In this document: one piece after another, positions 12,014 to 34,303 of the stretch
Position numbering within the stretch: position 1 is the stretch's first letter
Layout of the letters: the number at the start of each line of letters is the position of its first letter
From: Rhodospirillales bacterium
GTDB lineage: Bacteria > Pseudomonadota > Alphaproteobacteria > Acetobacterales > Acetobacteraceae
Direction of reading: 5' to 3'
DNA: 40,697 bases
Assembly: GCA_025352665.1 (NCBI GenBank)
Contig: JANXSM010000136.1
Coordinates: 1 to 40,697, forward strand
Program-made: the position numbers and the translations under genes
The notes under the pieces: generated by a model
The model's input: the letters and a program-made list of their open reading frames with translations, nothing else
What the model was told of the DNA's origin: nothing
Databases searched by the model: none

Positions 12014-13156
12014 TCAGGCGGGCGTGACGGCGCGAAGGATGGCCGGAATCCTGACCTTAACCTGGAAATAGCCGCGCGTGGCGCCTGGCCAGGTCAGCTC
12101 ATCCCACTGCCGACGTAACCGCAGACAGCCAGGCGGCAGCGCGCTGGCAGACGGACCGATGGGCGCCCAGGCCGTGACGACTGGGAGGTTGCCCTGCCAA
12201 CCTGGCACCGCTGGAGCTGCGTCGCAGCTGAACCACCGCCCGGCGCGCGCCAAGGCGTCGGCCATCGCCTCGCTATCCGCCTGCCGCACTCGTTCTGATG
12301 CGTTTGGTGCATGAACGAGCAGCCCAGCGACGCGCCCCACTTTGGCCCCGCCGATCGGCAGGCTCTCAGGATGCAGGTCTTCAAGATGCAGGAGCAGCGC
12401 CACGTTTCCAGACGGTGCGACGTCCGCAGGTGGCAGCGGGACCGCGTTGTGCTGCTCTGGCTCCTCCAGCGGCACCGGGTTCTCGTTCAATCCTTTCGGC
12501 GAGAAGCGCCCGACGGTATAGCGACGGATGTTTTCCGAGCGCGCAGCATAGCTCTTTCCCCGCGTGTGCAGCCCAGCGACCCAGCGCCACGAAAGGGTAT
12601 TGCTGGCGGGATCACCGTCGATCAGATGTTTCAGAAAAAAGTCTGCGCCAAGCGCCCAGGGGAGGCGCAGGGTGAAAATCCAGATGGACGCGAACCACAT
12701 CCTGGTGTGGTTGTGCAGCCAGCCGGTGTCGACCAACTCGCGCGCCCAATCGTCGAAGCCGTCGATGCCGGTCCGTCCTAAAACGGCGGCGTCGTAAGCT
12801 CGTTGCAGGCCGGAGTTCGCAGCCAGGCGATTCTGCTCGTGGACCACCGCCTCCTGGTAGCTGGTCCAGGTCGAGGGGTGGGTCTCGAGAAACCCCTTGA
12901 AATAGGTTCGCCAGAATACCTCCTCGACGAACTTCCCCGCCGCTTCGGGGCCGTGCGCGGCAAGTGCAGCGCCAACGACCTCCTGCTCTAGCAGCAGCCG
13001 ACGGCGCAGATAGGGTGAGAGCACGGTGGTTGCCGCCTCAACATCACGCCCGGCGTCGGTGTTGCGGTTGGCGGCGTAGGCGTGGCCTGCACGCTGAACC
13101 GTGGCAGCCAAACGGTCGAGCGCGGCGCTGCGGGTGAGGATGATGTTATGGTTCAT
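12014..13156 (-). CDS. Short photolyase/cryptochrome-like FAD-binding protein
   Basis: 380 residues. The core (about 35-215) is the helical FAD-binding domain of DNA photolyases/cryptochromes: SPYLRRRLL, FVEEVFWRTYFKGFLETHP, GWLHNHTRMWFASIWIFTL, GDPASNTLSWRWVAG and the substrate-side ARSENIRRYT. The N-terminal alpha/beta antenna-binding domain of canonical photolyases is missing. Instead, about 130 residues follow the FAD domain (about 247-375, starting GNVALLLHLEDLHPESLP) and may be an alpha/beta domain placed C-terminally. It could be a DNA repair enzyme or a light sensor; sequence alone does not decide. It stands alone between repeat debris and an enolase operon. Confidence 0.82.
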   Translation of the reverse strand: MNHNIILTRSAALDRLAATVQRAGHAYAANRNTDAGRDVEAATTVLSPYLRRRLLLEQEVVGAALAAHGPEAAGKFVEEVFWRTYFKGFLETHPSTWTSYQEAVVHEQNRLAANSGLQRAYDAAVLGRTGIDGFDDWARELVDTGWLHNHTRMWFASIWIFTLRLPWALGADFFLKHLIDGDPASNTLSWRWVAGLHTRGKSYAARSENIRRYTVGRFSPKGLNENPVPLEEPEQHNAVPLPPADVAPSGNVALLLHLEDLHPESLPIGGAKVGRVAGLLVHAPNASERVRQADSEAMADALARAGRWFSCDAAPAVPGWQGNLPVVTAWAPIGPSASALPPGCLRLRRQWDELTWPGATRGYFQVKVRIPAILRAVTPA

Positions 13157-13390: not shown

Positions 13391-14548
13391 CTACATGTCC
13401 ACGACGCTGCCATCTTCGTGTGGGCGCATGGCGATCTTGCGCGGGCGCGGCGGGAACTTCTTCTCGATGTCGTCGACCAGTGTCAGGCCGATCCCTGGCC
13501 CGTCGGGAATGGCGATGAAGCCGTCGATCTGATCCTCGAGGCCGGTCGCCATGCCGTCGCCGAGGACAGCGGTGGAGCCGTCGATTTCGGGAGTGCGCGT
13601 GGGGTATTCCTGGATGGCGAAGTTGGGGATGCAGGCGGCGATTTGCAGGCAGGCGGCCGTGCTGACGATGGAGAGCGGGTTGTGCGGCACGATCCAGCAA
13701 TCATTCGCCTCGGCGAGGGCGGCGATCTTTTTTGCGCCGGTGATACCGCCGCAGAGGCAGACGTCGGGGCGGAGGTAGGCGACGGCGCGCCGGTTCAGCA
13801 GCGTTTGAAACTGGTAGAGGTTGATGAAGCGCTCGCCAGTGGCGATGGGGATGTGGATGTGGTCGGCGACATAGGCCATCGCGTCGGGGTCGTTGGGGCG
13901 GAGCGGGTCTTCGTAGAACATGGGTTTGTATTGTTCGATGGCGCGGGCAAGCGCGATAGCCTCGGGCGGGGTGAGGCGGCGATGGATCTCGATGCAGAGG
14001 TCAACGGAGGGTCCGACTGCCTCGCGCAGGAGGCGGACGGTCTCGGCTGCGTCCTCGATCTTCTGGGCATGCGGCTTGAAGTAGGGCGTGGTCTCGTCTT
14101 CGTCGAGCAAGGGGTTGAGGTGGCCGAGCGCGGTGAACCCGAGTTCCTTCAGGCGTATGGCTTCGGCAATCAGGCTGTCGCGCGTTCGGCCTTTGACGTG
14201 GCCATACAGGCGGGCCTTGTGGCGCATCTTGCCGCCGAGCAGTTCGTAGACGGGGACGTTGTACAGCTTGCCCTTGATGTCCCACAGCGCGATGTCGATG
14301 GCCGAGATCGCGCCGTTGATCGCCCCGCCGGTGAAGTGGTTGGCGCGGTGCATGACGTTCCAGTGGTGCTCGATCGGGCGGGGATCGCGGCCGACGAGGT
14401 ATTCGCCGTATTTGGTGATGCTGGCCGCACTGGCTTCGAGCTGTCCCCAGGTGCCAGACTCGCCGATGCCAGTGATGCCGGCGTCGGTTTCAATGCGAAC
14501 GAAGCAGAACCGATCCACCATCAGGGGTTCGACTTTGGTGATCTTCAT
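13391..14548 (-). CDS. Enolase-superfamily dehydratase (galactonate-dehydratase-like)
   Basis: 385 residues, MR/MLE branch of the enolase superfamily. The sequence looks closest to the D-galactonate/D-mannonate dehydratase type: no KxK on the second strand (YGHVKG near 115), a first metal ligand paired with histidine (E187-I-H189), then E213 (YEDPLRP), E239 (ATGER) and base H289 (VPHNPLS). In most family members the first ligand is Asp (DxH); here it is Glu. Expected reaction: Mg2+-dependent loss of water from a sugar acid to a 2-keto-3-deoxy acid. It is the last gene of the binding protein/permease/ATPase operon, 20 bp after the ATPase stop, so its substrate is probably the imported compound. 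Confidence 0.88.
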   Translation of the reverse strand: MKITKVEPLMVDRFCFVRIETDAGITGIGESGTWGQLEASAASITKYGEYLVGRDPRPIEHHWNVMHRANHFTGGAINGAISAIDIALWDIKGKLYNVPVYELLGGKMRHKARLYGHVKGRTRDSLIAEAIRLKELGFTALGHLNPLLDEDETTPYFKPHAQKIEDAAETVRLLREAVGPSVDLCIEIHRRLTPPEAIALARAIEQYKPMFYEDPLRPNDPDAMAYVADHIHIPIATGERFINLYQFQTLLNRRAVAYLRPDVCLCGGITGAKKIAALAEANDCWIVPHNPLSIVSTAACLQIAACIPNFAIQEYPTRTPEIDGSTAVLGDGMATGLEDQIDGFIAIPDGPGIGLTLVDDIEKKFPPRPRKIAMRPHEDGSVVDM

Positions 14549-14568
14549 GGCGCGGGCCTTTCAGACGG

Positions 14569-15633
14569 TCAGGTTTCGGGAACGAGGACGACGGCAGAGG
14601 CGTCGATGCGGATGTTCAACGCGGTTCCCGTTGCGACGACGTGGCGCGACGGAAGGTCGGCGCGAAGCGTGACCGCGCCGGCCTGGAGTTCAACGGTCTG
14701 CACCGGGCCGAGGTAGCTGACGCGGGTGACGGTGGCGGGGATGCCGTCTGGCGCAGGTTCGACGTTTTCGGGACGGATGCAGACGAGGACGGCGCCGCTC
14801 GGGACCCAGCCCGGTGTTGCGACATGGCCTTCCAAGGTTAGGCCACCGGGAAGGGTCACGGTGTGGCGGCCGTCGCCATGGCTTGCCGTGACGGTGGCTT
14901 CGAGCAAGTTGGCGTTGCCGATGAAGGCTGCGGCAAAGCGGTTGGCGGGGCGTTCGTAAAGGCTGCGCGGGCTGCCCTCCTGCACGATGCGGCCTTGGTG
15001 CATGAGGATGATGCGGTCGCTCATCACCATGGCCTCGGCCTGGTCATGGGTGACGTAGACGGAGGTGCGGCCGAGCCTGCGCTGCAATGCGAGAAGTTCG
15101 AAGCGCATGCGCTCGCGCAGGCCGGCGTCGAGGTTGGAAAGCGGCTCGTCGAACAGCAGCAGTCGGGGCTCCGTGATGACGGCGCGGGCGACGGCAACGC
15201 GTTGCTGCTGGCCGCCCGAGAGCTCGGTGCCGTAGCGGGCGCCGTAGCCATCGAGGCCGACAAGACGCAGTACCTCGGTCACGCGCGTTGCGATTTCGGC
15301 GGATGGGGTGTTTCGCGTGCGCAGGCCGTAGGCGACGTTGTCGAACACGCTCATGTGCGGCCAAACGGCGTAGGACTGGAACACCATATTGACGCCGCGC
15401 CGTTCGGGCGGGGTTTCGTGGCCGGGGCAGACGACGCGATCCGTGCCAATGCTGATATGGCCGGTGGTGGCGGTTTCGAGGCCGGCGATGCAGCGCAGCG
15501 TAGTGGTCTTGCCGCAGCCGGAGGGGCCGAGCAGAGAGACGAAGGCCCCCGCCTCGACGGTGAAGGAGACGTTGTCGACGGCGAGAAAATCACCGTATTT
15601 CACCACGAGGTCGCGGACGGAAAGGTCGCTCAT
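14569..15633 (-). CDS. ABC transporter ATPase (FbpC/PotA type)
   Basis: 354 residues from the ATG at 15633 (CAGGTG upstream); the frame is open further upstream but overlaps the permease. Walker A GPSGCGKT (36-43), Q-loop FQ (85-86), signature LSGGQQQR (138-145), Walker B RLLLFDEP, H196 (THDQAEA) and a C-terminal TOBE-like region (about 275-350). It energises the adjacent two-domain permease, whose stop lies 1 nt upstream of the start. ATPases with TOBE domains are sometimes shared, and this one might also serve the nearby CUT1 permeases that lack their own ATPase. Confidence 0.92.
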   Translation of the reverse strand: MSDLSVRDLVVKYGDFLAVDNVSFTVEAGAFVSLLGPSGCGKTTTLRCIAGLETATTGHISIGTDRVVCPGHETPPERRGVNMVFQSYAVWPHMSVFDNVAYGLRTRNTPSAEIATRVTEVLRLVGLDGYGARYGTELSGGQQQRVAVARAVITEPRLLLFDEPLSNLDAGLRERMRFELLALQRRLGRTSVYVTHDQAEAMVMSDRIILMHQGRIVQEGSPRSLYERPANRFAAAFIGNANLLEATVTASHGDGRHTVTLPGGLTLEGHVATPGWVPSGAVLVCIRPENVEPAPDGIPATVTRVSYLGPVQTVELQAGAVTLRADLPSRHVVATGTALNIRIDASAVVLVPET

Positions 15634-15634
15634 A

Positions 15635-17302
15635 CTACACCTGGCTCGACAGTTTGACGCGAAACACATAGCGCCCAGCGATGACGCCTGCGGCAAGGAG
15701 TGCTGTTTGCAGCAGGCCAACGACGGCAGCCTTGGGAACGTCGCCAAAGTCGAGATAGTTGAACGACAGGACAGACAGCACGACGTTGTCTGACGATGTC
15801 AGCAGGACTGCTGCGCTGATTTCCCGAACCGCGAAGATGAACACCATGATCCAAGCGGACAGCAGGGCAGGGCGCGCGAGCGGCAAGGTGATGCGCAACA
15901 AAGTGCGCCCGTTGCCCGCACCGCACAGCAGCGAGGCCTCCTCCAGCGCGCGATCGATCTGCAACAAGGCGGTGTCGCTGATGCGATAGGCGAAAGGGAC
16001 GTAGGCGGCGACAAAGGCCAGCACCAGCACGGCGATCGTGCCGTAGGCGGGGGTCAGCACATAGGTCCAGAACACGCCGGTGCCAAACACGATCCCAGGA
16101 ACCGCGATTGAGAACATCGTGATGTAGTCGATGGCGTTCGATGCCGGCACGCGCAGGCGGCGCACGGCATACGCGATCAGCAAGCCCAGGCCGACGCAGA
16201 GCGTGGGGGTGATGAGGCCAACCTCCAGCGTGTTCACGGTGGCACCTGCGACCTCGGCCGACGTAAGCACGCCCCGGGCGTTCGCCAACGTCCAGACTGG
16301 GGCGAAAATGGTTCCGCCGGCACGTGCGAAGGCCGACCAGACAAGCGCCAGATACGGCAACACGATCGAGAGCACGACATAGACGCCGACCAGGCCGGCC
16401 ATCGGCCAGCGAAGCCAGCGCAAGCGGACGAGGCGGATACGATATCCCCGTGCGGTGACGGTGACGAAGCGTCGCGCGGCGCGAGAGGCAAAGCGGTAGG
16501 CGGCAATGCCCATCACCGAAATCCAAAACAGCAGCGTGCCGATCGCCGCCGCTGTGCCGTAGTCGATCGGATAGGTGGCGCTCGCCTGGAATACGTCGAC
16601 GGCAAGGAAGCGGACCTGCGAGGCGCGGTCGAGCACGGCGGGTATGGCAAAGGTGCCGCAGGCAAGCACGAAGATGAAGAAGAACGCGCTGATCAGCGCA
16701 GGGCGAACCACCGGCAGCGTCACCTTGAGTGCCGTGCCCAATATGCCGGAGCCGTTGACGCAGGCGGCCTCCTCCATCGACGGGTCCATGTTCCGGAGGG
16801 CTGCGGCAACCGTGAGGTAGGCGTAGGGCAAGTAGTAGAGTGCCATGATCAACACGATGCCCGAGGGCGTCGCCACATTGACCACGGCACCGGTCGTGCC
16901 GAACCAGGCGCGGGCGATGACGTTGAGCAGTCCGGCTCTCGGCGAACCAAGCACAAGCCAGGCGATGGCGCCGACAAAGGGTGACAGGAACAGCGGCGCG
17001 ATAATGCAGGTTTCCATGATCGGGCGTGCCGGCAGGTCCGTCCGGCTGGTGAGCCAGGCCATGGTGACGCCACCCAGGGTCGCTGCAATCGCAACCAGAA
17101 AGGCGATGACAAGCGTCGAGCCTAGCGTGCGGAGGAAGGGCAGCGTCGTGTAGACGGCCGCAACCTTGCTCAGCGTGAGATGCGCCTCGGGATCGGCGAG
17201 TGCGCCGGACATGAAGGCACCCAGGAACATGAACCCGACCGGCACAAGGATCAGTACCGTCAGCAGCGGGATCAGCAGCCAAGGAAGGAGGGCGCGGGTC
17301 AA
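15635..17302 (-). CDS. Two-domain ABC permease (FbpB-like)
   Basis: 555 residues with two fused permease domains and about twelve membrane segments. Each half carries an EAA-type coupling loop: EEAACVNGSGILGTALKVTLP in the first half and EEASLLCGAGNGRTLLRITLP in the second. The length and doubling match ferric-iron-type (FbpB) permeases, a family that also imports phosphonates, thiamine and organic acids. The start is a TTG at 17302 that overlaps the binding-protein stop (TTGA). Confidence 0.9.
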   Translation of the reverse strand: MTRALLPWLLIPLLTVLILVPVGFMFLGAFMSGALADPEAHLTLSKVAAVYTTLPFLRTLGSTLVIAFLVAIAATLGGVTMAWLTSRTDLPARPIMETCIIAPLFLSPFVGAIAWLVLGSPRAGLLNVIARAWFGTTGAVVNVATPSGIVLIMALYYLPYAYLTVAAALRNMDPSMEEAACVNGSGILGTALKVTLPVVRPALISAFFFIFVLACGTFAIPAVLDRASQVRFLAVDVFQASATYPIDYGTAAAIGTLLFWISVMGIAAYRFASRAARRFVTVTARGYRIRLVRLRWLRWPMAGLVGVYVVLSIVLPYLALVWSAFARAGGTIFAPVWTLANARGVLTSAEVAGATVNTLEVGLITPTLCVGLGLLIAYAVRRLRVPASNAIDYITMFSIAVPGIVFGTGVFWTYVLTPAYGTIAVLVLAFVAAYVPFAYRISDTALLQIDRALEEASLLCGAGNGRTLLRITLPLARPALLSAWIMVFIFAVREISAAVLLTSSDNVVLSVLSFNYLDFGDVPKAAVVGLLQTALLAAGVIAGRYVFRVKLSSQV

Positions 17303-18417
17303 CCCTTCTTGCCGCTCTGATAATTGAAGATCTCATTCCACTCAGCAATGATGGGCTTCTTCGGATCAGCGAAGGCCTCATCCTTGAGGTAGGCGGTGTA
17401 GAACTCAGTTGGTTCGTGAAACCAAGGTTCCTTGAACCAGTCAAGCTTTCCGGCGTGGCGAGGGTCGACGACGTCGGGGCGCGTGGCACCGGCGATGGAG
17501 TATTTCAGCCACTCGGCCTGGCCTTCCGCCGTGGTGGACCATTCCTGGAACAGGCGGGCAGCCGCAGGGTGCGGCGCATTTTTCGTGATGCTTTGGGAGG
17601 TCAAAGCGATCGGCGTGGGCGCAGGGAAGGACCAGCGGATCGGCGCGCCTTTGAGATAGTAGTCGCTCAGTGTACCCGCCGAACCTTGGTCCATCAGCGT
17701 GTATTCGCCGGCAGCGAGGCGTTCGAAAAGTGGCGCCTTGCTCGCGTAGATGTCGGGTGCGTTGGCGGCGAGCTTGCTGAACCAGGGCTTGCCATACTGG
17801 GCGCGCAACGTGACCAGAAACATGTAACAGAACGCGTAGGAACTGCCGCCAGAGGCGGGGGTGGCGGTGCCGAAGCGACCCTTCCATCGCGGATCGGCGA
17901 GTGCGTTCCATCCGCCGGTCTGGATGAGTTTCTCTTCCTCGGGTGTCACGGTCTTGCTGTTGTAGCCGATGCCCATCGGGTCGGTGAACAGGCCGTACCA
18001 GATCCCCTCTTGCTTCAGGTCGCCCGGGATCATGGCGCCGCCTGCCGGCGTGTAGTCGGCGATGAAGCCGAGGCGATTGGCGTAAGCAAGCAACGTCGGA
18101 TCAGTGATCTGCACAAGGTCGGCGAGGTGGCGGCCGACGCGTGATTCGTTGAGGAACCGGTCGAACAAGGGATAGCTAGGCAGCCGCATGTTCTTCATCT
18201 GGAGGCCAAATCGCTTGGCGAACGCATCGGTCCACAGCCCGGTCGGGCCGATATCGGAGTTGTGGTAGTAGCTGAGCGTGCCGTCTTTCTGAGCGGCCTT
18301 GACCAGATCGTCGGTGATGCCCGGTTTGGACTGCGCGCGCGCGGCGATGATCGCAGGCGCGGCAAGTGCTGCGCCAAGGAGCAGACGTCGCGAAACGATG
18401 TTTCCTGAATGCGTCAT
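17299..18417 (-). CDS. ABC binding protein (iron/carboxylate/polyamine type)
   Basis: 372 residues; GGGAGA lies 6 nt before the ATG. The N-terminus (SRRLLLGAALAAPAIIAARAQ) has twin arginines and a hydrophobic stretch, so Tat export is possible. The mature part is a type-II periplasmic binding fold of the FbpA/PotD kind (DLVKAAQKDGTLSYY, GIWYGLFTDPMGIGYNSKTV, LADPRWKGRFGTA). No ferric-ligand tyrosine pair stands out. Because an enolase-type dehydratase ends the operon, a sugar acid or related carboxylate is a better guess than iron. First gene of the operon. Confidence 0.9.
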   Translation of the reverse strand: MTHSGNIVSRRLLLGAALAAPAIIAARAQSKPGITDDLVKAAQKDGTLSYYHNSDIGPTGLWTDAFAKRFGLQMKNMRLPSYPLFDRFLNESRVGRHLADLVQITDPTLLAYANRLGFIADYTPAGGAMIPGDLKQEGIWYGLFTDPMGIGYNSKTVTPEEEKLIQTGGWNALADPRWKGRFGTATPASGGSSYAFCYMFLVTLRAQYGKPWFSKLAANAPDIYASKAPLFERLAAGEYTLMDQGSAGTLSDYYLKGAPIRWSFPAPTPIALTSQSITKNAPHPAAARLFQEWSTTAEGQAEWLKYSIAGATRPDVVDPRHAGKLDWFKEPWFHEPTEFYTAYLKDEAFADPKKPIIAEWNEIFNYQSGKKG

Positions 18418-18644: not shown

Positions 18645-19487
18645 TCAGCCCTTCACTGCGCCCGCGGTGAGGCCGCGCACCAGCGCCCGCTGGACGATGG
18701 CGAAGAGAATGACGACCGGCGCGATCGAGATCATGCCGCCCGCCGCGAGCTCCCCCCAAGGAAGCTGAAATTCCCCCACCATCAGCTGCAGCCCGACCGG
18801 CCAGGTGCGTGAGCCGCTTGACGACGTCACCATCAGCGCGAACAGATATTCGTTCCATGCACCGATCGCCACGAATACCGACGTGGCGACCAGCCCGCCC
18901 AGCACCAGCGGCAGGATCACCCGCACCATCGCGGTTAGACGAGATGCTCCGTCGATGCGCGCGGCCTCTTCGAGCTCAGGCGGAATGGCGTCGAAAAACC
19001 CCTTCATCATCCAGATGAACACCGGCAGCAGGAACGAGGTGTAGGCAAGCGCCAGGCCGAAACGGCTGTCGAGCAGGCCCACATTGCGGAGCGTGATGAA
19101 CAACGGAATGACGATCATGACTGCGGGAAACATCCGCACGGCGAGATACAGCAACAGGATTTTCTGCCGCCCGGCGAAACGGGTTCGCGCGACCGCGTAG
19201 GCTGCCAGTGTTCCGGCGGTGGTACAGATTGCGACCGTCACCGCCGTGGTGATGGCGGAGTTGAGGATCAGCTGCGGGAATCCCGAACGGGTCCAGATCG
19301 AGACGTAATTGTCCCAGACCGGGCGTTTCGGCAAGTAGGTGAGCGTGGCGGTGATCACCTCCTCGTCAGGCTTGATCGAGATGAGGAATGTCCACAGCAC
19401 TGGCAGTACCGACAGCGCCACGATCAAAATCACGGCGCCATAAGCCAGGAGGTTGCCGATCAACCGGCGATGCTTCGCCCCCATCAT
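18645..19487 (-). CDS. CUT1-type sugar ABC permease (MalG-like)
   Basis: 280 residues with six membrane segments; the EAA loop ELEEAARIDGASRLTAMVRVILP is near 170-192. It begins MMGAKHRRLIGNLLAYGAVILIV, and the family's GAWNEYLFALMVTSSS is near 210. It is the second of two permease genes and overlaps its partner by 4 bp. No ATPase gene follows; the operon ends here. Confidence 0.92.
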   Translation of the reverse strand: MMGAKHRRLIGNLLAYGAVILIVALSVLPVLWTFLISIKPDEEVITATLTYLPKRPVWDNYVSIWTRSGFPQLILNSAITTAVTVAICTTAGTLAAYAVARTRFAGRQKILLLYLAVRMFPAVMIVIPLFITLRNVGLLDSRFGLALAYTSFLLPVFIWMMKGFFDAIPPELEEAARIDGASRLTAMVRVILPLVLGGLVATSVFVAIGAWNEYLFALMVTSSSGSRTWPVGLQLMVGEFQLPWGELAAGGMISIAPVVILFAIVQRALVRGLTAGAVKG

Positions 19488-20380
19488 TCTTTCAGCACAT
19501 TGGACAGGCGGACATACAGATACGAGAACCCCATCAGCCCCACGAACAGCACCATCGCCAGAGCCGATCCATAACCGAAGTTGAACTCCTTGCTGACTTT
19601 GAGGAACGCATACAGCGACAGCACCTGCGACGCCCGCCCAGGCCCGCCGCCGGTGAGGATGAGGATGATGTCGGGTGCGTTCACCAAGCTGATCACCCGC
19701 AGCACAACTGTGGCCACGATGATCATCTGCAGCTGTGGCAGAATGACATGCCGAAACCGCGCAAACGGCCCCGCGCCATCTATCTCGGCCGATTCATAGA
19801 GCTCAAGCGGGACCGCCTTCAACCCGGCGAGCAGCAGCAGCGCAAAGAACGGAAACCCGTGCCATATCTCAACCACCATGGCCGCTCCCAGCGCCGTGTC
19901 GGGATTGGCGAACCAGGCGAAATAGCTGTCCAGCACCCCGATCCGGACCAGAATGTCGTTGATCACGCCAAGCCTGGGATCGAGCATCAGCGCCCAGATA
20001 TGGCCCGCCACCACATTGGGCAGGAACCACGGCAGCAGGATCAGCACCGAGGCCGCACGAAACCCTGGCAGTCCGCGATCGACCAGCAGCGCCGTCGTCA
20101 GGCCAAGCAGGAACTCGCCCATCGTGGCCCCCACGACCCAGACGAGCGTGTTGCGCAAGGATAGCCAGAACACTGGATCGTTCCAAAGCGCGACATAGTG
20201 CTTGAATCCCACGAAGCCAGTGCCGAGATCGGGCCGGTTGAGCCGCATTTCGCGAAACGACAGACTCATGCCCCAAAAGGTCGGGTACAGCACCACGGCT
20301 GCGATCAGCAGCAGGCTCGGCACCAACAGGAACCAGACCCAGCCTCGCCGTTCCGACAGCGTGCCAAGACCCATTCTCAA
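19484..20380 (-). CDS. CUT1-type sugar ABC permease (MalF-like)
   Basis: 298 residues with six membrane segments; EAA loop ELYESAEIDGAGPFARFRHVILP near 195-217 and a C-terminal RLSNVLKE. It pairs with the MalG-like permease. It overlaps the upstream enolase stop by 4 bp and the downstream permease start by 4 bp, so the genes are coupled. Confidence 0.92.
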   Translation of the reverse strand: MRMGLGTLSERRGWVWFLLVPSLLLIAAVVLYPTFWGMSLSFREMRLNRPDLGTGFVGFKHYVALWNDPVFWLSLRNTLVWVVGATMGEFLLGLTTALLVDRGLPGFRAASVLILLPWFLPNVVAGHIWALMLDPRLGVINDILVRIGVLDSYFAWFANPDTALGAAMVVEIWHGFPFFALLLLAGLKAVPLELYESAEIDGAGPFARFRHVILPQLQMIIVATVVLRVISLVNAPDIILILTGGGPGRASQVLSLYAFLKVSKEFNFGYGSALAMVLFVGLMGFSYLYVRLSNVLKE

Positions 20381-21495
20381 ACCTTCGCGACCGCGGTCCG
20401 TTCAATCGCGTCCCAGTCATAGTCAAAGCCGAGACCCGGCGTGTCGGAAACCCGCATCACACCGCCTTGGATGGAGAGCGGTCCGTTGTTGCGCAATTGA
20501 TCGATCTGCACGGTGTCGATCACCAGTTGCTCATAAAAATCGTTGTTCGGCATGGCAGCGCAAAGCTGCGCGTTGGCATGCCCCATGCCGTGTACCTGGC
20601 AGCGCATGCCGTGGCTCTCCGAGAGATGCGCGATCTTCAGCGCGCCGGTTAAGCCGCCCTTCATGTTGCAATTGGTGCGCGTCATGTCGAGTGCGCCCAT
20701 CTGGATCCAGGTTGCCATGTTCCAATGGCAGCCATCCGAAGTCTCCGCGGCCAGCACAGGGATGTCGAGCGCGTCACAAAGCTTGCGATAGCTGCCGAGC
20801 TCGAACTCGCGCATCGGTTCCTCGTACCAGAGAAAATTCTCCCCCTCGAGCACGCGGCCGAACTTCATGGAAGTCACATAATCCCAGCCCGCCGAGCCGT
20901 CGAACATCAGCTCCGCATCTGGGCCGGTCCACTTGCGCAGGTTGCGCGACAGCATCGCGTCCTCGCGCGGGTCACCCCAGGCGTGCAGCTTGAACGCGGT
21001 GAACCCAACGTCGATGCAATGTTTGATGTGGCGTTCGTACTCGCCCATCGTATTCCATGTGACGGTCGACGCGTAAACGCGCACATTGGGGTTATAGCCC
21101 CCTAGCATCTGCCAAAGCGGCATGCCGGCAAGCTTTGATTTCGCGTCCCAAGCCAGGATGTCGATCAGGCCGAGATGCGTCATCGACATCTCCTCAACTC
21201 GGTCGATCTCCCAGATCAGCTTCCAGAGCCGCTCGGTGTTGCGCGGGTCCTCGCCGATCAGGGTCTTGAGCCGCCGCTCGGTCAGGCTCAACGCCGCCCA
21301 GGCATGGCGCTGCCCGGCCTCGATCTCATAGGCACCGGTGACACCGGCATCAGTGTCCATCCGAAAGATCGCGGCGAGCGGCGTTTTGCCCGCCGGCGTG
21401 CCGTCGCCTGACCCGGCCAGACCGTTCCTCCAGCGGAACGGATGCGGCGGGTCGGGACGCTCGACGAGATAGCATCGAATATCGGTGATCTGCAC
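20377..21495 (-). CDS. Enolase-superfamily enzyme, MR-like (KxH type)
   Basis: 372 residues. Enolase-superfamily barrel with metal ligands D199 (MFDGS), E226 (YEEP) and E251 (AAETSDG). The second-strand base motif reads K169-L-H171 rather than KxK, and H302 (VHGMGH) is the likely acid/base on the other face. The N-terminal capping domain has an insertion (about 24-38, NGLAGSGDGTPAGK). It probably dehydrates or epimerises a sugar acid; the exact subgroup is unclear. It lies between the PhyH gene (2-nt gap) and the permease genes, so it should act on the same imported compound. Confidence 0.88.
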   Translation of the reverse strand: MQITDIRCYLVERPDPPHPFRWRNGLAGSGDGTPAGKTPLAAIFRMDTDAGVTGAYEIEAGQRHAWAALSLTERRLKTLIGEDPRNTERLWKLIWEIDRVEEMSMTHLGLIDILAWDAKSKLAGMPLWQMLGGYNPNVRVYASTVTWNTMGEYERHIKHCIDVGFTAFKLHAWGDPREDAMLSRNLRKWTGPDAELMFDGSAGWDYVTSMKFGRVLEGENFLWYEEPMREFELGSYRKLCDALDIPVLAAETSDGCHWNMATWIQMGALDMTRTNCNMKGGLTGALKIAHLSESHGMRCQVHGMGHANAQLCAAMPNNDFYEQLVIDTVQIDQLRNNGPLSIQGGVMRVSDTPGLGFDYDWDAIERTAVAKV

Positions 21496-21497
21496 GT

Positions 21498-22304
21498 TTA
21501 CATGCTCCGGCTGGGTGCGATGCGCGAGGCTGCGATGGAACTGGCGTGGCGGGCGATATCGGCTTCGAGGAACTCGCCCGCGGCCCCCGCCTCGGGGCCG
21601 AAATGGCCCCAGGAATCGGTACCCCGCACCAGCATCGCCACATCCGGACCGGCCGGCTTCACGTGGGCGCCGACATAGCGGATCGCGAAGCCGATGCGCC
21701 GGTGATCGGCTCGGTTGGGCTCGGAATTATGCGCGATCTTGACATGGTGCAGCGACATCTCGCCGGGCTTCAGAGCCACATCTCGCACCTGCGCCAGGTC
21801 CACCTCGACGGCGATCTCCTGGCCGCGCGAGAGCATGTTTTCGGCAGCGAATGTCTCGACATGTTCTACGATTGGCCACAGATGCGAGCCCGGCACGACG
21901 CGCATACAGCCGCTCTGAACGGTGCTCGGCGATAGCGCCACCCAGGCGGTGACGATGTCGGCTGGCTCCAGCCCCCAATAGGTGGCGTCCTGATGCCAGC
22001 CGACATAGGCAGGCGAATGTGCCTCCTTGAGGAAGAAATTCGCCCCCCACACGAGGATGTTGGGACCGATCAGCGATTCGACCCGGTCGAGGATGGCCGG
22101 ATGGGCGCAAAGATCGGCGAGGCGCCGAGACACCACGTGCGTCTTGTGGCGCAGCACCGCGGCGCGGGTTTCAGCCGGTAGCCGGTCGAGATCGGCGACC
22201 ACCGCGCGCATCGCGACCTGCTCAACCTGGGTGAGCACAGCGTAGGGGAATAGGATCCCCTCCGCCTGGTAGCGAGTGACATCCTGGGCGAGCAGTGCCT
22301 TCAT
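21498..22304 (-). CDS. PhyH-type Fe(II)/2-oxoglutarate dioxygenase
   Basis: 268 residues, phytanoyl-CoA dioxygenase family. The iron triad is visible as H104-Q-D106 (GWHQDATYW) and a distal histidine at H192 (IAHNSEPN); an arginine at about 202-203 (HRRIGFAIRY) should hold 2-oxoglutarate. It hydroxylates or oxidatively dealkylates an unactivated carbon of a small substrate. It is unusual inside a sugar-importer/enolase operon, where it is coupled to the binding protein (ATGA overlap) and the enolase. It may first modify the imported substrate, for example remove an O-alkyl group; that is inference. Confidence 0.9.
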   Translation of the reverse strand: MKALLAQDVTRYQAEGILFPYAVLTQVEQVAMRAVVADLDRLPAETRAAVLRHKTHVVSRRLADLCAHPAILDRVESLIGPNILVWGANFFLKEAHSPAYVGWHQDATYWGLEPADIVTAWVALSPSTVQSGCMRVVPGSHLWPIVEHVETFAAENMLSRGQEIAVEVDLAQVRDVALKPGEMSLHHVKIAHNSEPNRADHRRIGFAIRYVGAHVKPAGPDVAMLVRGTDSWGHFGPEAGAAGEFLEADIARHASSIAASRIAPSRSM

Positions 22305-23518
22305 AGCGTGGCCTCAAGCCCTGCAATCATGGCATCCACAGCCTGGGCAGGGGTTGAACGGCCGGTCAGCGCTTTCTGGAACTCGGGCTGCACCACGTTG
22401 TCCGACCAGCCCGCGACACCTGTGAAACCCTGAGGCAGACGACCGAACTTTGTCGTCTCGATCGCCGCGGCATACAGCGGATTGCCGGTGATGCGCGGAT
22501 CGGCGGCCACGATAGGGTTTGAGGGGAAATAGCCAGTCTCCTCAAGGAAGGCGATGCCGGCGTCGGGTTCACCCCAAAAGCCTAGCCAGTTCCAGGACGC
22601 GTCGGCCTGGGCCGGGTTTGCGATGCCGTTGAACTGGTAGGACATGCGCGCGACGCGCGCGGCGGGACCCGCGGGGATCGGGCAGGTCGCCCAAGTACCG
22701 GGCTTGAGGGCTGCGGCGATCTCGGTGAACGACCCGGTGTGGTGCCACACCATCGCGGTCTGGCCGGTTTTAAACCCATCCATGATCTGGCGGAAGCCGT
22801 CGCCCGGCGCGCTGGCGGGCACCGCCTTCTGCTTCGTCAGCAGCTCGGTATAGAAGCGCAGCGCTTCAGCAGCCTTGATGCGGTCGATGGCCGGCTTCCC
22901 GTTCACCACGATCGGTGAGCCCCAGGCCTCGAACAAATCGATGATGAACTTGTAGCCGCCAGGTCCGCCGCGCAGGCCGAAGCCGTAACGGTTCTTCGCG
23001 GGATCGGTCAGCTTCACCGCGGCGGCGGCGAAATCGGCCATCGTTGTGGGCGCCTTGAGGCCGGCCTCGTCGAACCAATCCTTTCGGTAATACATCCAGT
23101 CGACAAAGGTGAAGGCTGGCACGCCATAGATCTTGCCGCCGACGGTGCAACCGGACCAGGCCTGCGCCGGGTATTCGGTATATCGCGACCAGGACTTCAC
23201 CCGCTGGGAGAGATCGGTGAGCGTGCCCATGGCGACGAGATCGGCCACGCGCTCGGCGGTCACCATGGCCACGTTGGGCTTCGCGTTGGCCATGGTGGCA
23301 GCCGTCATCTTGGCCATGTATTCGGGGTTGGGGATGTTCTCCTGCACAAGCTTGATGGACGGATATCTCTTGGTAAACAGCGCCATCACCTTCTCCAGAC
23401 CTTGGAATTCAGTGGTGGAGGTGAAGTGGTGCCAATAGGTGATGCTGGCCGTCTGGGCTGTGGCAGGGCGGACGATCAAGGGGGCGGCGAGCAGGCCTAG
23501 GGCGGTGCGGCGGCGCAT
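22301..23518 (-). CDS. CUT1-type sugar ABC binding protein
   Basis: 405 residues; GGGAGA lies 6 nt before the ATG. A signal peptide ends near residue 21 (RPATAQ). The mature fold is a type-II sugar-binding protein: SITYWHHFTSTTEFQGLEKVM, KYPSIKL-like YPSIKLVQENIPNPEYMAKM, GKIYGVPAFTFVDWMYYRKDWF. It is the second gene of the operon, 20 bp after the first enolase. Confidence 0.92.
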   Translation of the reverse strand: MRRRTALGLLAAPLIVRPATAQTASITYWHHFTSTTEFQGLEKVMALFTKRYPSIKLVQENIPNPEYMAKMTAATMANAKPNVAMVTAERVADLVAMGTLTDLSQRVKSWSRYTEYPAQAWSGCTVGGKIYGVPAFTFVDWMYYRKDWFDEAGLKAPTTMADFAAAAVKLTDPAKNRYGFGLRGGPGGYKFIIDLFEAWGSPIVVNGKPAIDRIKAAEALRFYTELLTKQKAVPASAPGDGFRQIMDGFKTGQTAMVWHHTGSFTEIAAALKPGTWATCPIPAGPAARVARMSYQFNGIANPAQADASWNWLGFWGEPDAGIAFLEETGYFPSNPIVAADPRITGNPLYAAAIETTKFGRLPQGFTGVAGWSDNVVQPEFQKALTGRSTPAQAVDAMIAGLEATL

Positions 23519-23538
23519 GGTGGTCTCCCGGGTTGCGG

Positions 23539-24672
23539 TCAGAGCGTGATCGGAGTGCTGTTCGGGGCGGGGGGCAGCGTGTCGGGTTCGAGGACATCAG
23601 GGACGGCCATGGCGCGGGCTTCGGCGCTGAGAGTGAGTCCGTGGCCGGGCCGTTCCGGGGCGATTGCGAAGCCGGCGTCGAACACGATCGGTTGTTCGAC
23701 GAGATGCATGGTGTTCTGGAACGAATACTCGATCCAGCGCGCCTCCGGAATTGCGGCGGCCATATGGACACCAAGCTCGACCATGGTGTTGCCGAGGCTG
23801 ACCTCAACGCCGTGGTCGCCGGCCAGCCAGCCGGCGCGCATCACGTCAGAGATATGGCCGTGCACGTTGAGGATATCCGCGCCGCGCGCCTCCAGCAGCA
23901 GACGCTTGCCGTGCAGGTCGAGATATTCGCCGGAATTCACATGCACGCGCGGACAGGCCTCGCGAACTTCGCGCAGGCCCCGGAAATCATCGCGCAGGAT
24001 CGGGTCCTCGGCCCAAAATATTTCAAAGCCGGCGCGCTGGTAAATGCCGAGCCGACGGATCGCCTCCTTCGGCGTCCAGGCCTCGTTGCTGTCGACCATG
24101 ATAGTCGCGTTGCGTCCGACTGCTGTCCGCAGCAGTTCAAGCCGGTTGATGTCCCAGGCGACGTCGGGATGGCCGACCTTGATCTTGAAGGCGGAAAACC
24201 CCAGCGCCGCGGCTTGGCCGAACAGGCTCGCGTAGTCTTTGTCCGACAGGTGGTAGTCGAGCCCGCTCGCATAGGCGGGCACGCGGGCGTCGGTGCCGCC
24301 AAGCATGCGATAGAGCGGAAGGCCGGCCTGTTTCGCCGCCAAGTCCCACATCGCCTGGTTGATGGCTTCGCCGAAATTGAGGCTTGTGTTCCGCCAGTTG
24401 CCGCCGCGCGGCCGGGCAAGACGATGGATGACGCCGGCAGGGGGCGCCCCCTCGATACGCTCCCATGCCTCGAGGCGGAACAGTCGCTCGATCTCGGCCA
24501 ACGACGGCAGAACATGCGCGATGCTGCTGAAAAACCCAAGCCCCACAGTGCCGTCATCGGCGATGAGCTCAAGCGCTGCGATGTGGGCAAAGGCGAAGCG
24601 CACCTGGCTGTCGCCGATCACGCGGTCGCGCCGAAACTGAAAGCGCGTGAGACGGAAGCCGTCGACCCGCAT
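23539..24672 (-). CDS. Enolase-superfamily enzyme lacking the usual C-terminal histidine
   Basis: 377 residues, MR/MLE family. KxK is present (K163-I-K165), with ligands D194 (MVDSN), E222 (AEDP) and E249 (NSGEY). The barrel position that is His in mandelate racemase (SxH, four residues before Glu) reads N295 (VSLGNTMVE). The dyad-aspartate region reads NVHGHISD instead of QPDxxRxGG. The enzyme therefore probably relies on the lysine face, which suggests an epimerase, cycloisomerase or syn-dehydratase role. First gene of the operon; AAGGGGG precedes the start, and the divergent GntR gene begins 66 bp away. Confidence 0.88.
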   Translation of the reverse strand: MRVDGFRLTRFQFRRDRVIGDSQVRFAFAHIAALELIADDGTVGLGFFSSIAHVLPSLAEIERLFRLEAWERIEGAPPAGVIHRLARPRGGNWRNTSLNFGEAINQAMWDLAAKQAGLPLYRMLGGTDARVPAYASGLDYHLSDKDYASLFGQAAALGFSAFKIKVGHPDVAWDINRLELLRTAVGRNATIMVDSNEAWTPKEAIRRLGIYQRAGFEIFWAEDPILRDDFRGLREVREACPRVHVNSGEYLDLHGKRLLLEARGADILNVHGHISDVMRAGWLAGDHGVEVSLGNTMVELGVHMAAAIPEARWIEYSFQNTMHLVEQPIVFDAGFAIAPERPGHGLTLSAEARAMAVPDVLEPDTLPPAPNSTPITL

Positions 24673-24721
24673 ATTTCCCCCTTGTCGCCGCTGCCGCGGG
24701 CGTAGCCCCTTGTTCGAGACT

Positions 24722-24733
24722 CTGATATATCAG
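24722..24733. promoter_or_regulatory. Perfect palindrome, candidate GntR operator
   Basis: CTGATATATCAG, a 12-bp perfect palindrome in the 66-bp divergent gap between the first enolase and the GntR gene, ending 5 nt before the GntR ATG. Its size and AT-rich centre suit FCD-type GntR proteins. It could control both directions and would mask the GntR start region. Confidence 0.6.
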
Positions 24734-24738
24734 TTGTC

Positions 24739-25482
24739 ATGGATGATAGATCACATACGGCTGCGACGGCAAGTGACGCGTTGGAGGTGCTGTCCGCCCC
24801 CTACGCTCCGTTGCGGGAGACCGAGACCGGCCCGCGCAGCCTCAGCGATGTCGCCTATGCACGCTTCATTGACGCGCTGTTCGACCGTCGGATCACCCCT
24901 GGTGCCACGCTGTCGCAGGCCGATCTCGTGCGCATCCTCGATGTGCCGCTGGCCCCGTTGCGCGACGCCTTGCGCGTGTTGCAGACCGAAGGGCTGCTCA
25001 CCATCCACGCCCGCTCCGGCATCGCGCTCGCCAAGCCGGATTTTGGCATGATCCGCAATACCTACCAGCTCCGCGCGATCCTTGAACGCGCGGCCATCCG
25101 CAGCTTCGCCGAGATCGCGGAGATCGGTCTGATCGGGGAGCTCACCGACTGTGCCGAGGCCGTCATCGTGGCAGTCCAGGGTCAGGAGATTTCTGCGGCC
25201 GGTGCGCAGGCCGTCGAGCGTATCGATTTCGGCTTTCATATGCGGGTGGTCGCCTGCCTGCAGAATCCGCTGATCCAGACCACCTACCGTCAGGCGCACA
25301 GCTTCGACCGACTGATCCGCCTCGACCGTGCTTTTCGCCTGTCCGCACCGCTGGTCGTCCGGACGATGATCGAGCACCTTGATATCCTGGCCGCCTGCGC
25401 CCGCCGTGACGCCAATGTGGCAGAGGCGGCGCTGGAGGTGCATTTTGCCCGCGCCATGCAACGCGCCATGGGCTGCGCATGA
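24739..25482 (+). CDS. GntR-family (FadR/FCD) transcriptional regulator
   Basis: 247 residues. The winged helix is at about 35-100 (SDVAYARFIDALFDRRITPGA, then PLAPLRDALRVLQTEGLLTIHARSGIAL). The FCD ligand domain is at about 105-235, with metal-site residues in RIDFGFHMRVVA and histidines in MIEHLDIL and LEVHFARAM. No Shine-Dalgarno sequence precedes the ATG at 24739, so the mRNA may be leaderless. It diverges from the enolase-binding protein-PhyH operon and precedes an enolase gene by 10 bp, so it is the local regulator of the sugar-acid pathway, most likely a repressor released by an intermediate. Confidence 0.9.
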   Translation: MDDRSHTAATASDALEVLSAPYAPLRETETGPRSLSDVAYARFIDALFDRRITPGATLSQADLVRILDVPLAPLRDALRVLQTEGLLTIHARSGIALAKPDFGMIRNTYQLRAILERAAIRSFAEIAEIGLIGELTDCAEAVIVAVQGQEISAAGAQAVERIDFGFHMRVVACLQNPLIQTTYRQAHSFDRLIRLDRAFRLSAPLVVRTMIEHLDILAACARRDANVAEAALEVHFARAMQRAMGCA

Positions 25483-25492
25483 GGAGACGCCA

Positions 25493-26602
25493 ATGAGCCG
25501 GATCGACCAGGTCGAGATCTTGATGGTGGATCTACAGCCGAAAGTACGGCGAACCGACGCCATTCAATCTTTCATCTCGCAGGAGACGCCGATCGTTCGG
25601 ATCCGCACCACGGATGGGGCGATCGGCACCGGCTATAGCTACACGATCGGCACCGGCGGGCACGCGGTGGTGTCGCTGCTGGAGCGGCATCTGGCGCCGC
25701 TTCTGCTTGGGCGAGATCCAGCGATGATCGAGCAGATCTGGCGCGATTTGCAGTTCTCCACGCATGCGACCTCCGTCGGTGCGATCACCTCGTTGGCGCT
25801 GGCTGCGATCGACACGGCACTGTGGGATTTGCGCTGCCTTGGTGCCGGTCAGCCTCTGCATCGCATGGCCGGTGGCGCGCAGTCGCGCGTGCCGCTGTAC
25901 ACCACCGAGGGCGGCTGGCTGCATATCGAGACTCCAGCGCTGATCGAGGATGCGCTGCGGGCAAAGGAAGCCGGGTTCGGCGGCTGCAAGCTGAAGGTTG
26001 GCCGCCGCCCGCACGACGATGTGGCGCGGCTCTCGGCTGTGCGCGAAGCCGTCGGTCCCGATTTCGAAATCATGGTCGACGCCAACCAGGCCTTCGCGGT
26101 GGATGAGGCGATCCGTCGCGCGCGACTGTTCGAGCCGCTTGATCTCGCCTGGTTCGAGGAACCGCTGCCGGCCGATGATCTCGACGGGCATGTGCGGCTT
26201 TGCGCCGCGACCACCCTGCCTGTAGCGGTAGGTGAGTCGATCTACGGGATTGGCCATTTCCGAGACTATTTGCAGAAAGGCGCGTGCTCGGTCGTACAGG
26301 TCGATGTCGCGCGCATCGGTGGCATCACACCGTGGCTGAAGGTCGCGCATATGGCCGAGGCGTTTAACCTGCCGGTCAGCCCGCATTTCCTCATGGAGTT
26401 GCATGTATCGCTATCGGCCGCGGTGCCCAACGGGCGCTGGGTGGAATACATCCCCCAACTCGACGGCATCACGCACAGTGGCATAACAATCGAAGCAGGC
26501 TACGCGATCCCGCCGACAAGGCCTGGTCTCGGCATTTCGTGGGATTGGGAGCGGATCCAGGCACAGTCGATTGCAAATGTGGTGTTGCAGGCTCGGCTGT
26601 AG
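25493..26602 (+). CDS. Enolase-superfamily enzyme, mandelate-racemase subgroup
   Basis: 369 residues from the ATG at 25493, with GAGGAG 7 nt upstream. Complete mandelate-racemase-type active site: K166-L-K168, D196 (MVDAN), E222/E223 (FEEP), E248 (VGES), D271 and H298 (SPHFLMELH). The K168 and H298-D271 pair on opposite faces allows racemisation or dehydration. Likely an acid-sugar dehydratase or epimerase acting in the same pathway as the divergent operon. It is the second gene of the GntR transcript. Confidence 0.9.
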   Translation: MSRIDQVEILMVDLQPKVRRTDAIQSFISQETPIVRIRTTDGAIGTGYSYTIGTGGHAVVSLLERHLAPLLLGRDPAMIEQIWRDLQFSTHATSVGAITSLALAAIDTALWDLRCLGAGQPLHRMAGGAQSRVPLYTTEGGWLHIETPALIEDALRAKEAGFGGCKLKVGRRPHDDVARLSAVREAVGPDFEIMVDANQAFAVDEAIRRARLFEPLDLAWFEEPLPADDLDGHVRLCAATTLPVAVGESIYGIGHFRDYLQKGACSVVQVDVARIGGITPWLKVAHMAEAFNLPVSPHFLMELHVSLSAAVPNGRWVEYIPQLDGITHSGITIEAGYAIPPTRPGLGISWDWERIQAQSIANVVLQARL

Positions 26603-33502: not shown

Positions 33503-34303
33503 TCAAAAGAAAGCCTGCAGTCCGGTGATGGCGCGGCCAAGAATCAGCGCGTGCACATCATGCGTGCCTTCGTAGGTGTTCACCGTCTCCAGGTTCTGTG
33601 CGTGGCGCATCACCTGGTATTCGGGTGAAATGCCGTTGCCGCCGTGCATATCCCGCGCCATGCGGGCGATGTCGAGCGCCTTGCCGCAGTTGTTGCGCTT
33701 GACGATGGAGACCATCTCGGGCGCCATCTGCCCCGCATCGAACAGCCGGCCGACGCGCAGGGAAGCCTGCAGGCCAAGTGCGATCTCCGTCTGCATGTCG
33801 GCCATCTTGCGCTGCATCAGCTGGGTCGCGGCCAAAGGGCGGCCGAACTGCCGACGGTCGAGCGTGTATTGGCGGGCGCGATGGAAACAATCCTCGGCCG
33901 CCCCCAGCACGCCCCAGGAGATGCCGTAGCGCGCGGGGTTGAGGCAGCCGAATGGGCCCTTCAGCCCCGACACATTCGGCAGCGGCGCGTCTTCGCCCAC
34001 CTCAACATCCTCCATCACGATCTCGCCAGTGATCGAAGCGCGCAGCGACAGTTTGCCCATGATTTTCGGGGCGAACCGGCCCTTCATGCCCTTCTCCAGC
34101 ACGAAGCCGCGGATGGCATTGCCGTGGGCGGCTGATTTCGCCCAGACGACGAAGACATCAGCGATCGGCGAATTCAAGATCCACATCTTGGCGCCGTTGA
34201 GCAAATAGCCTCCTTTAGCCTTCTCCGCCCGTGTCTTCATGCCGGCGGGATCGGAGCCCGCATCCGGCTCGGTCAGGCCGAAGCAGCCGATCCACTCGTC
34301 GCA
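33503..34303 (-). pseudogene. gcdH: Glutaryl-CoA dehydrogenase, 5'-truncated
   Basis: The C-terminal two-thirds of a glutaryl-CoA dehydrogenase: [42 protein letters not shown], and the end [20 protein letters not shown] with the catalytic glutamate. The N-terminal 120-130 residues are gone. At about 34304 the frame runs directly into the reverse part of a LivG-type ATPase gene, so a deletion joined the two. Without the N-terminal domain the product is unlikely to fold as an enzyme. The remaining part is otherwise undamaged, which suggests that the loss is recent. Confidence 0.82.

Follow-up and report, generated by a model that had tools for sequence, protein, structure and literature searches.

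Gene content and organization

The sequence analysed here, hereafter the window, comprises positions 1 to 40,697 of contig JANXSM010000136.1 from a Rhodospirillales bacterium of the family Acetobacteraceae, and contains a predicted GntR-controlled catabolic unit for sugar-acid import and enolase catabolism. Most of the unit is a predicted operon of six genes on the minus strand, running from 24672 to 18645. It starts with enoB, an enolase-superfamily gene (23539..24672; PF13378, no match to PF02746), which is followed by genes for the solute-binding protein (SBP) of a CUT1 importer (22301..23518; PF01547), a PhyH-family Fe(II)/2-oxoglutarate oxygenase, which is an optional part of the unit (21498..22304; PF05721, 104 bits), and a second enolase-superfamily protein, enoA (20377..21495; PF13378/PF02746). 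The last two genes, perm1 (19484..20380) and perm2 (18645..19487), encode permeases 1 and 2 of the importer (both PF00528). From enoB to perm2 the junctions are a 20-nt gap, a 4-nt overlap, a 2-nt gap and two 4-nt overlaps.

Divergent from this run, on the plus strand, are gntR (24739..25482; PF00392 and PF07729), which encodes a GntR/FCD regulator, and behind it a third enolase gene, enoC (25493..26602; PF13378). An earlier interpretation of the same DNA, the sequence-only reading, had described a minus-strand run of six genes with gaps of 2-20 nt or 4-bp overlaps and a divergent gntR and enolase, and the coordinates agree with that description. Just two of the three enolases it described in the window, EnoB and EnoA, are encoded within the run, enoC being outside. 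Scans of the window for promoters and terminators gave no excess over shuffled sequences.

Conservation of the core unit

The gene order enoB-SBP-enoA-perm1-perm2, hereafter the core, was complete in 12 genomes (the window, L034, L036, L037, L038, L039, L040, L041, L055, L056, L072 and L076; here and below, L, G, C and g numbers are our handles for loci, genomes, contigs and genera). An EnoB scan of the named genomes yielded 10 loci, and further loci came from searches of other relatives. The core was partly visible in four more genomes: in L043 enoB is cut by the contig end, in G612 the core is split over L042 and L078, in G476 (L080) the contig begins after enoB, and the fourth is G003, discussed below. 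L035 contains enoB alone. Since G862 is identical to G612, the 18 handles correspond to 17 genomes, 16 with core genes and G861 with enoB alone. Identities to the window were 54-68% for the SBP in 13 relatives, 60-76% for perm1 and 60-72% for perm2 in core relatives, and 54-69% for EnoB across 12 proteobacterial relatives. For GntR they were 60% in L034, 53% in L055, 65% in L072 (partial) and 42% in L076.

The recurrence of this order across genomes bears out the view of a conserved, separately regulated unit for import and enolase chemistry. In other genomes it is the five core genes that are found together; enoC does not recur with them, and PhyH is optional. None of the other core loci compared had a gene with enoC as its best match, and the idea that the three enolases form one system was therefore rejected.

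A shorter unit occurs on plasmids of Rhizobium, Neorhizobium and Microvirga, with GntR (39-47% identity), the SBP (55-57%), both permeases (55-63%) and EnoB (56-62%), and without EnoA and PhyH. A Martelella plasmid has GntR and EnoB in common with this unit, but the importer beside them is a different one. Judged from these sequences, GntR, the importer and enoB are the older unit, and of the core enzymes enoB has been associated longest with the importer and GntR.

A palindrome between gntR and enoB

A ten-base palindrome, TGATNNATCA, was present between gntR and enoB in all 11 loci that have gntR at this position (the window, L034, L055, L072, L076, L049, L050, L051, L053, L116 and L117). 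It was absent from all nine loci with enoB and without gntR (L035, L036, L037, L038, L039, L040, L041, L042 and L056), of which L056 shows just 362 nt before enoB, so that the lack of gntR is weak there. Several of the rhizobial loci with the palindrome are near copies, and the 11 cases thus represent fewer than 11 independent events. The 40.7-kb window contains two sites, both at the gntR/enoB boundary, the first (TGATATATCA, 24723..24732) lying within a 12-bp palindrome at 24722-24733 and the second (TGATAGATCA, 24744..24753) overlapping the start of gntR. Shuffled windows contained on average 0.43 sites, and 11 of 100 reached two. The palindrome is likely to be the operator, a prediction that draws on its conservation across loci more than on the count within the window.

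Active sites of the enolases

Residue-by-residue alignment agreed with the earlier description of three different active sites, one with KxK and no His, one with KxH and one with the full set; strand numbers below follow what we take to be the pattern of the enolase superfamily. EnoB has KxK (K163/K165), D194/E222/E249, His271 on strand 6 and Asn295 instead of the strand-7 His. EnoA has KxH (K169/H171) and D199/E225/E251, and His302 is kept while its partner Asp is replaced by Asn. The active site of EnoC is complete (KxK, D, E, E, Asp, His). Measured against the set of the mandelate-racemase subgroup, which consists of KxK, a His-Asp dyad and three metal ligands, the metal ligands are kept in all three proteins.

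The best solved relative of EnoB is the close homologue Mll7089 (PDB 2oz8; E 2e-133), presumably from Mesorhizobium loti, and we found no functional paper on this structure in the one open-access library searched. EnoA is nearest to 1rvk, 4mmw and 4hcd (E about 3e-50), which also have KxH and which we take to be aldarate-type enzymes. EnoA-like enzymes of 37-45% identity are encoded on plasmids of Streptomyces, Embleya and Paenibacillus; the two such loci examined offered no clear gene context. The nearest solved relatives of EnoC are 5xd7, 2og9 and 2pp0 (talarate/galactarate dehydratase).

The PhyH oxygenase

The residues H104-x-D106, H192 and R203 were kept in all 25 aligned family members, and the predicted structure has the fold of a 2-oxoglutarate oxygenase (mean pLDDT 92.7). 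By sequence and by model, the protein thus has the HxD...H metal triad and the fold of Fe(II)/2-oxoglutarate enzymes of the PhyH family. Its nearest structural relative is ThoJ, a non-heme monooxygenase (PDB 6zyk/6zyl) that presumably differs in role, since we take it to act in the biosynthesis of peptide natural products. A halogenase was considered and rejected: the NCBIfam chlorinating-enzyme model scored 71 bits against a cut-off of 226, and the Asp of HxD is retained.

In the window, G003, L034 and G319 (L055) the gene is flanked by the SBP gene and enoA; in G577 (L038/L081) and L042 it is instead found upstream of enoB. The sequence-only reading had placed an oxygenase in the middle of a sugar-acid operon, and this is where the gene is found in the window; a fixed middle step does not follow, since the gene is optional and occupies two positions. 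In a tree of 33 PhyH rows, from which the G003 copy was excluded for its in-frame stop, at least two changes were needed to account for the core-linked copies, forced by supported branches. Most simply, PhyH joined the core twice, in two clades and at a different position in each, a pattern that speaks for a role of the enzyme in the pathway.

PhyH might instead be a passenger, picked up from among the many PhyH genes of the family and without a role in the pathway. Homologues are indeed common (34 of 147 genomes at E<=1e-40, the window's own included), the core occurs without PhyH in cis in g20, g52, g5 and G144, and the G003 copy carries a stop. Such an origin is nevertheless unlikely given the two clades and two positions, the 4-nt overlap and 2-nt gap that flank the gene in the window, and the presence of PhyH genes beside other enolases in G058 and on a Halomontanus plasmid.

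The G058 locus (L120:7437-11750) groups genes for an enolase, a 2-hydroxyacid dehydrogenase, PhyH and an alanine-dehydrogenase-like protein, and that of the haloarchaeon Halomontanus (L052:3615-11065) combines PhyH with two EnoB-like enolases. In G084 (L118:7941-9657), the PhyH gene that is sister to the second core-linked clade is separated by 13 nt from a gene for a luciferase-like monooxygenase.

Association with sulfoquinovose genes

Sulfoquinovose (SQ) is the sugar of plant sulfolipids and is very abundant. To relate the core to its breakdown, we used a sample of 397 genomes of the family, the window's own included, and took the enoA and sulfoquinovosidase (SQase) surveys as one set, totals and handles being in agreement. 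SQases were called with NF007746 at E<=1e-100, and 22 of the 24 pass the curated cut-off. SQase was found in 24 genomes, enoA in 13 and both in 9, which means that 9 of the 13 genomes with enoA have SQase, as compared to 15 of the 384 others (Fisher p 1.3e-9). By genus, all 5 genera with enoA are among the 11 of 102 with SQase (p 5.5e-6). Kinship makes these p-values too small, and the genus count is the fairer one. SQase genes have been described as a diagnostic marker of gene clusters for SQ use and as a help in the discovery of further pathways (PMC10755693).

The association extends to gene neighbourhoods. Three of the 13 core genomes of the family (G003, G490 and G497) have contigs that stop within the operon or shortly after it. 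Among the remaining 10, a gene for SQase, mutarotase or SQ dehydrogenase adjoins the core in nine, the exception being the window. An aldose epimerase (mutarotase) gene and a GH31 SQase gene follow perm2 on the same strand in L036, L039 and L041 (genus g20) and in L076 (g52), in the last with overlapping ends. All four GH31 enzymes score above the NF007746 cut-off, and that of L041 matches the Agrobacterium tumefaciens SQase 5ohy over its full length (E 6e-292). The motif RLFW, whose Arg and Trp presumably have a role in SQases, is kept in all eight SQases aligned. In genus g362 (L078, L080 and L081), an aldose epimerase and a short-chain dehydrogenase/reductase (SDR) are encoded beside the core on the opposite strand, while L043 has a piece of a GH31 gene at the contig end and L037 an epimerase gene only. 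Modules of epimerase, SDR and SQase genes recur in the family.

In the window's own genome (G000), the SQ genes are on other contigs. C49 (L054:753-7021) encodes a SmoF-type SBP (E 3e-151) with permeases, an SQ 1-dehydrogenase (E 1e-85 to 9gwu), an SQase (832 bits) and a short mutarotase, and it is by the best match of this dehydrogenase that the SDR family was assigned as SQ 1-dehydrogenase. C40 (L106:8607-11997) has a second pair of epimerase and SQ-dehydrogenase-like genes (78% identical), beside a gamma-glutamyltranspeptidase gene. In this genome the enolase operon is thus unlinked to the SQ genes and has a regulator of its own.

Genes for hydrolases of the penicillin-amidase family, which perhaps deacylate a sulfolipid, were seen in SQ modules (L092:3672-5918 and L103:209-2521) and, in one genus, upstream of the core (L036:4990-7305, L039:5564-9927 and L041:7633-9927). 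Those of L036, L092 and L103 and the first copy of L039 share 63-78% identity, while L041 and the second copy of L039 are of another type. A PcaB-like Lyase_1 protein is encoded after SQase in L041 (18313-19653), L036 (18335-19672) and L093 (349-1689); its score against XcbD, a model for a sulfonate enzyme, is 382 bits and below the cut-off. In L093 a gene for a luciferase-like monooxygenase lies between those for SQase and the Lyase_1 protein.

Comparison with known sulfosugar pathways

With the sulfo-Entner-Doudoroff (sulfo-ED) pathway of Pseudomonas putida SQ1 and of the Rhizobium cluster L108, our reference, the window's genome shares SQase, a SmoF-type importer of the CUT1 class and an SQ 1-dehydrogenase, the latter encoded on C49 and thus outside the operon. 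The sulfo-ED cluster also includes genes for an ILVD/EDD dehydratase and a PF03328 aldolase, which in the core genomes of the family are absent or distant, and unlinked. No PF03328 aldolase of the L108 type, acting on 2-keto-3,6-dideoxy-6-sulfogluconate (KDSG), was found in G000 at E<=1e-40, nor at this threshold in the other Acetobacteraceae core genomes, except for a 38% match with a stop in G623; matches of 44-48% were obtained in G319, G860 and G861. Likewise, no ILVD/EDD sulfogluconate dehydratase was linked to SQ genes in the family core genomes, where matches were at most 61% and on other contigs (in the window's genome 60%, contig C35). In G571, which lacks the core, an aldolase (64%) and a dehydratase (71%) are both encoded beside SQase.

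An enolase proven to dehydrate a 6-sulfo-aldonate is SfcF of the sulfofucose Entner-Doudoroff pathway of Paracoccus wurundjeri (PMC12421959). The sfc genes include an enolase of the families PF13378/PF02746, to which the enolases here also belong, together with an ABC importer, and some sfc clusters have an aldose epimerase. They differ in combining a single enolase with a dehydrogenase, a lactonase and a PF03328 aldolase (PMC12421959), whereas the unit described here has two enolases in the operon, GntR and the optional PhyH; no dehydrogenase, lactonase or PF03328 aldolase is among the operon's genes. The sulfo-ASDO/SDO route resembles the unit in placing an Fe(II)/2-oxoglutarate oxygenase, SqoD, in an SQ context, a likeness by description. 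In that route SQ itself is the substrate of SqoD, which works together with the reductase SquF (PMC12890257); the operon has no reductase gene.

The word enolase did not occur in the parts available of a 2026 review of sulfoquinovose pathways, nor in those of PMC12133307 and PMC10755693. We found no paper on the combination of enolase and PhyH in the one open-access library searched, nor any there in which the gene set had already been characterised.

Possible substrates

From these observations we infer a scheme for the substrate, the order of reactions, the binding of GntR and any role of PhyH. The six-gene operon encodes no ATPase and a shared one is therefore assumed, with which the CUT1 ABC importer would take up an anionic sugar or glycoside. 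With the help of EnoA, EnoB would abstract the alpha-proton of the derived sugar acid, leading to dehydration or epimerisation, and PhyH, where present, would hydroxylate an intermediate. At the TGATNNATCA sites, located between the two divergent units, GntR would bind until a compound of the pathway releases it. The class of substrate with the best support is the SQ family, which comprises SQ (6-deoxy-6-sulfo-glucose), its glycerol glycoside and the 6-sulfo-aldonate that an SQ dehydrogenase, such as the likely one of this genome, would form. The last would be charged at both ends, like the aldarates on which we presume the nearest solved relatives of EnoA to act. We tentatively suggest that the anionic sugar taken up and processed is derived from SQ, a suggestion held with limited confidence. 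In its favour are the association with SQase and other SQ genes, the lack of a close KDSG aldolase and of a linked sulfogluconate dehydratase in the family core genomes, and the precedent of SfcF. The sequence-only reading had proposed a modified sugar or sugar acid. A modified sugar acid appears a reasonable class; the examples given there, O-alkylated or deoxy compounds, find no support, and the neighbourhoods point to 6-deoxy-6-sulfo sugars instead.

The importer was considered as a route for SQ. A SmoF-type SBP was found at E<=1e-60 in just 2 of the 17 distinct genomes searched, the window's own and G860, which makes the core importer a candidate for SQ uptake in 8 other core genomes with SQase. 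A piece of a SmoH-type permease gene was found at a contig end in G319. We rejected the window's SBP as an orthologue of SmoF, as the match had an E-value of 3.5e-12 with GacH scoring higher, and a profile comparison (Prob 99, 20% identity) indicates a shared family only. In G860, an Alsobacter metagenome-assembled genome, L104:6152-16175 encodes a SmoFGH-like importer, a DeoC/LacD aldolase, a fucose-isomerase-C protein and a distant GH31 enzyme, and looks like another sulfosugar cluster.

Several results weigh against an SQ-derived substrate. The window's genome already has the SmoF-type importer on C49, and its core SBP is only weakly similar to SmoF, GacH being the better match (1e-17). Other importers are encoded near SQ genes, namely a CUT1 set in L092 (G490) and peptide-type binding proteins in L091 (G003) and L041, so that candidates for SQ uptake are not confined to the core importer. 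The rhizobial units of GntR, importer and enoB have no adjoining SQ genes, and outside the family none of three loci (G319, G144 and G860) has SQ genes beside the core. SQase was not found at E<=1e-100 in G476, G497, G577, G612, G319, G144, G860 and G861, nor SQ dehydrogenase at E<=1e-60 in G497, G549 and G591. In G003, a member of the window's genus, the run on C73 (L057) consists of SBP-PhyH-enoA. Neither enoB nor gntR precedes it, and PhyH and enoA are each interrupted by a single in-frame stop, due to decay or assembly error. In the window's own genome, the mutarotase gene on C49 matches just the last two thirds of its relatives. The genomes G002, G005, G007 and G535 have an SQ module and no core, and are also without the KDSG aldolase; the idea that the core simply replaces the sulfo-ED enzymes wherever an SQ genome lacks them was thus rejected. 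The tree of enoA is compatible with a single origin of the cis linkage to SQ genes, and one event could lie behind the linked loci. Finally, the putative TGATNNATCA operator was not found in the SQ stretches of the window's own genome (L054 and L106), nor in 12 of the 13 other SQ stretches scanned.

A single TGATCGATCA site, which may be due to chance, lies just upstream of the mutarotase gene of the SQ module in G005 (L101:12710), a genome without the core.

The main alternative is an ordinary acid-sugar unit, in which an aldarate, aldonate or aldonate glycoside is imported, EnoB and EnoA serve as its dehydratase or epimerase, and the adjacency to SQ genes goes back to one ancestral insertion in a carbohydrate island. 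The restriction of the rhizobial units to GntR, importer and enoB, the presumed aldarate-type specificity of the nearest solved relatives of EnoA, the separate regulator with an operator mostly absent from SQ modules, and an enoA tree compatible with one origin of the linkage all speak for it. Less easily accommodated are the association with SQase, which spans all 5 genera even where the two are not found side by side (G000, G003 and G490, the last two with contig ends), and the co-directionality of the SQ genes with the operon in G058 and three g20 genomes. We consider an ordinary acid sugar a real possibility, about as likely as an SQ-derived substrate and likewise to be held with reserve.

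A further alternative is a different charged head group of a lipid, for instance glucuronosyl-glycerol, with EnoA acting on derived glucarate. This would explain why SQ genes are found nearby and also why one enolase is aldarate-like. Glucuronosyl-glycerol co-occurs with sulfoquinovosyl lipids. In the scanned part of the flanks, however, the only glycosidases above the curated cut-off were SQase and one GH71 enzyme (L037), with no glucuronidase, and such a substrate seems improbable.

Returning to an SQ-derived substrate, a specific and very doubtful version is a new sulfosugar route from SQ to 6-deoxy-6-sulfogluconate. Two enolases would replace the ILVD/EDD enzyme, one perhaps epimerising and one dehydrating, and PhyH would hydroxylate the carbon next to the sulfur. 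Sulfite would then leave and a uronate-type acid remain (L-guluronate if formed from sulfogluconate), giving full use of carbon and sulfur without an aldolase that yields sulfolactaldehyde. If the unit belongs to SQ breakdown, it would represent a route or branch beyond the six pathways covered in the abstract of the review, one that relies on enolases and perhaps on an oxygenase with a new desulfonating activity. Should the substrate be another one, the unit of importer, regulator, operator and enolase (EnoB/Mll7089) common to rhizobia and Acetobacteraceae still gains a short list of candidate ligands.

Neighbouring genes

Adjacent to the operon, a run on the same strand (13391-18417) encodes a galactonate-dehydratase-like enolase, an ATPase, a long permease and a binding protein of the SBP_bac_6/11 type, the ATPase and the permease being assigned by reading the sequence only. 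This enolase is the fourth of the window and scores 310.7 bits against a cut-off of 311. At 12014-13156 lies the gene for a 380-residue protein in which only the FAD-binding domain of DNA photolyase was detected. At 33503-34835 there is an acyl-CoA dehydrogenase gene whose front part is seemingly out of frame, as judged from the open reading frames and a partial domain match.

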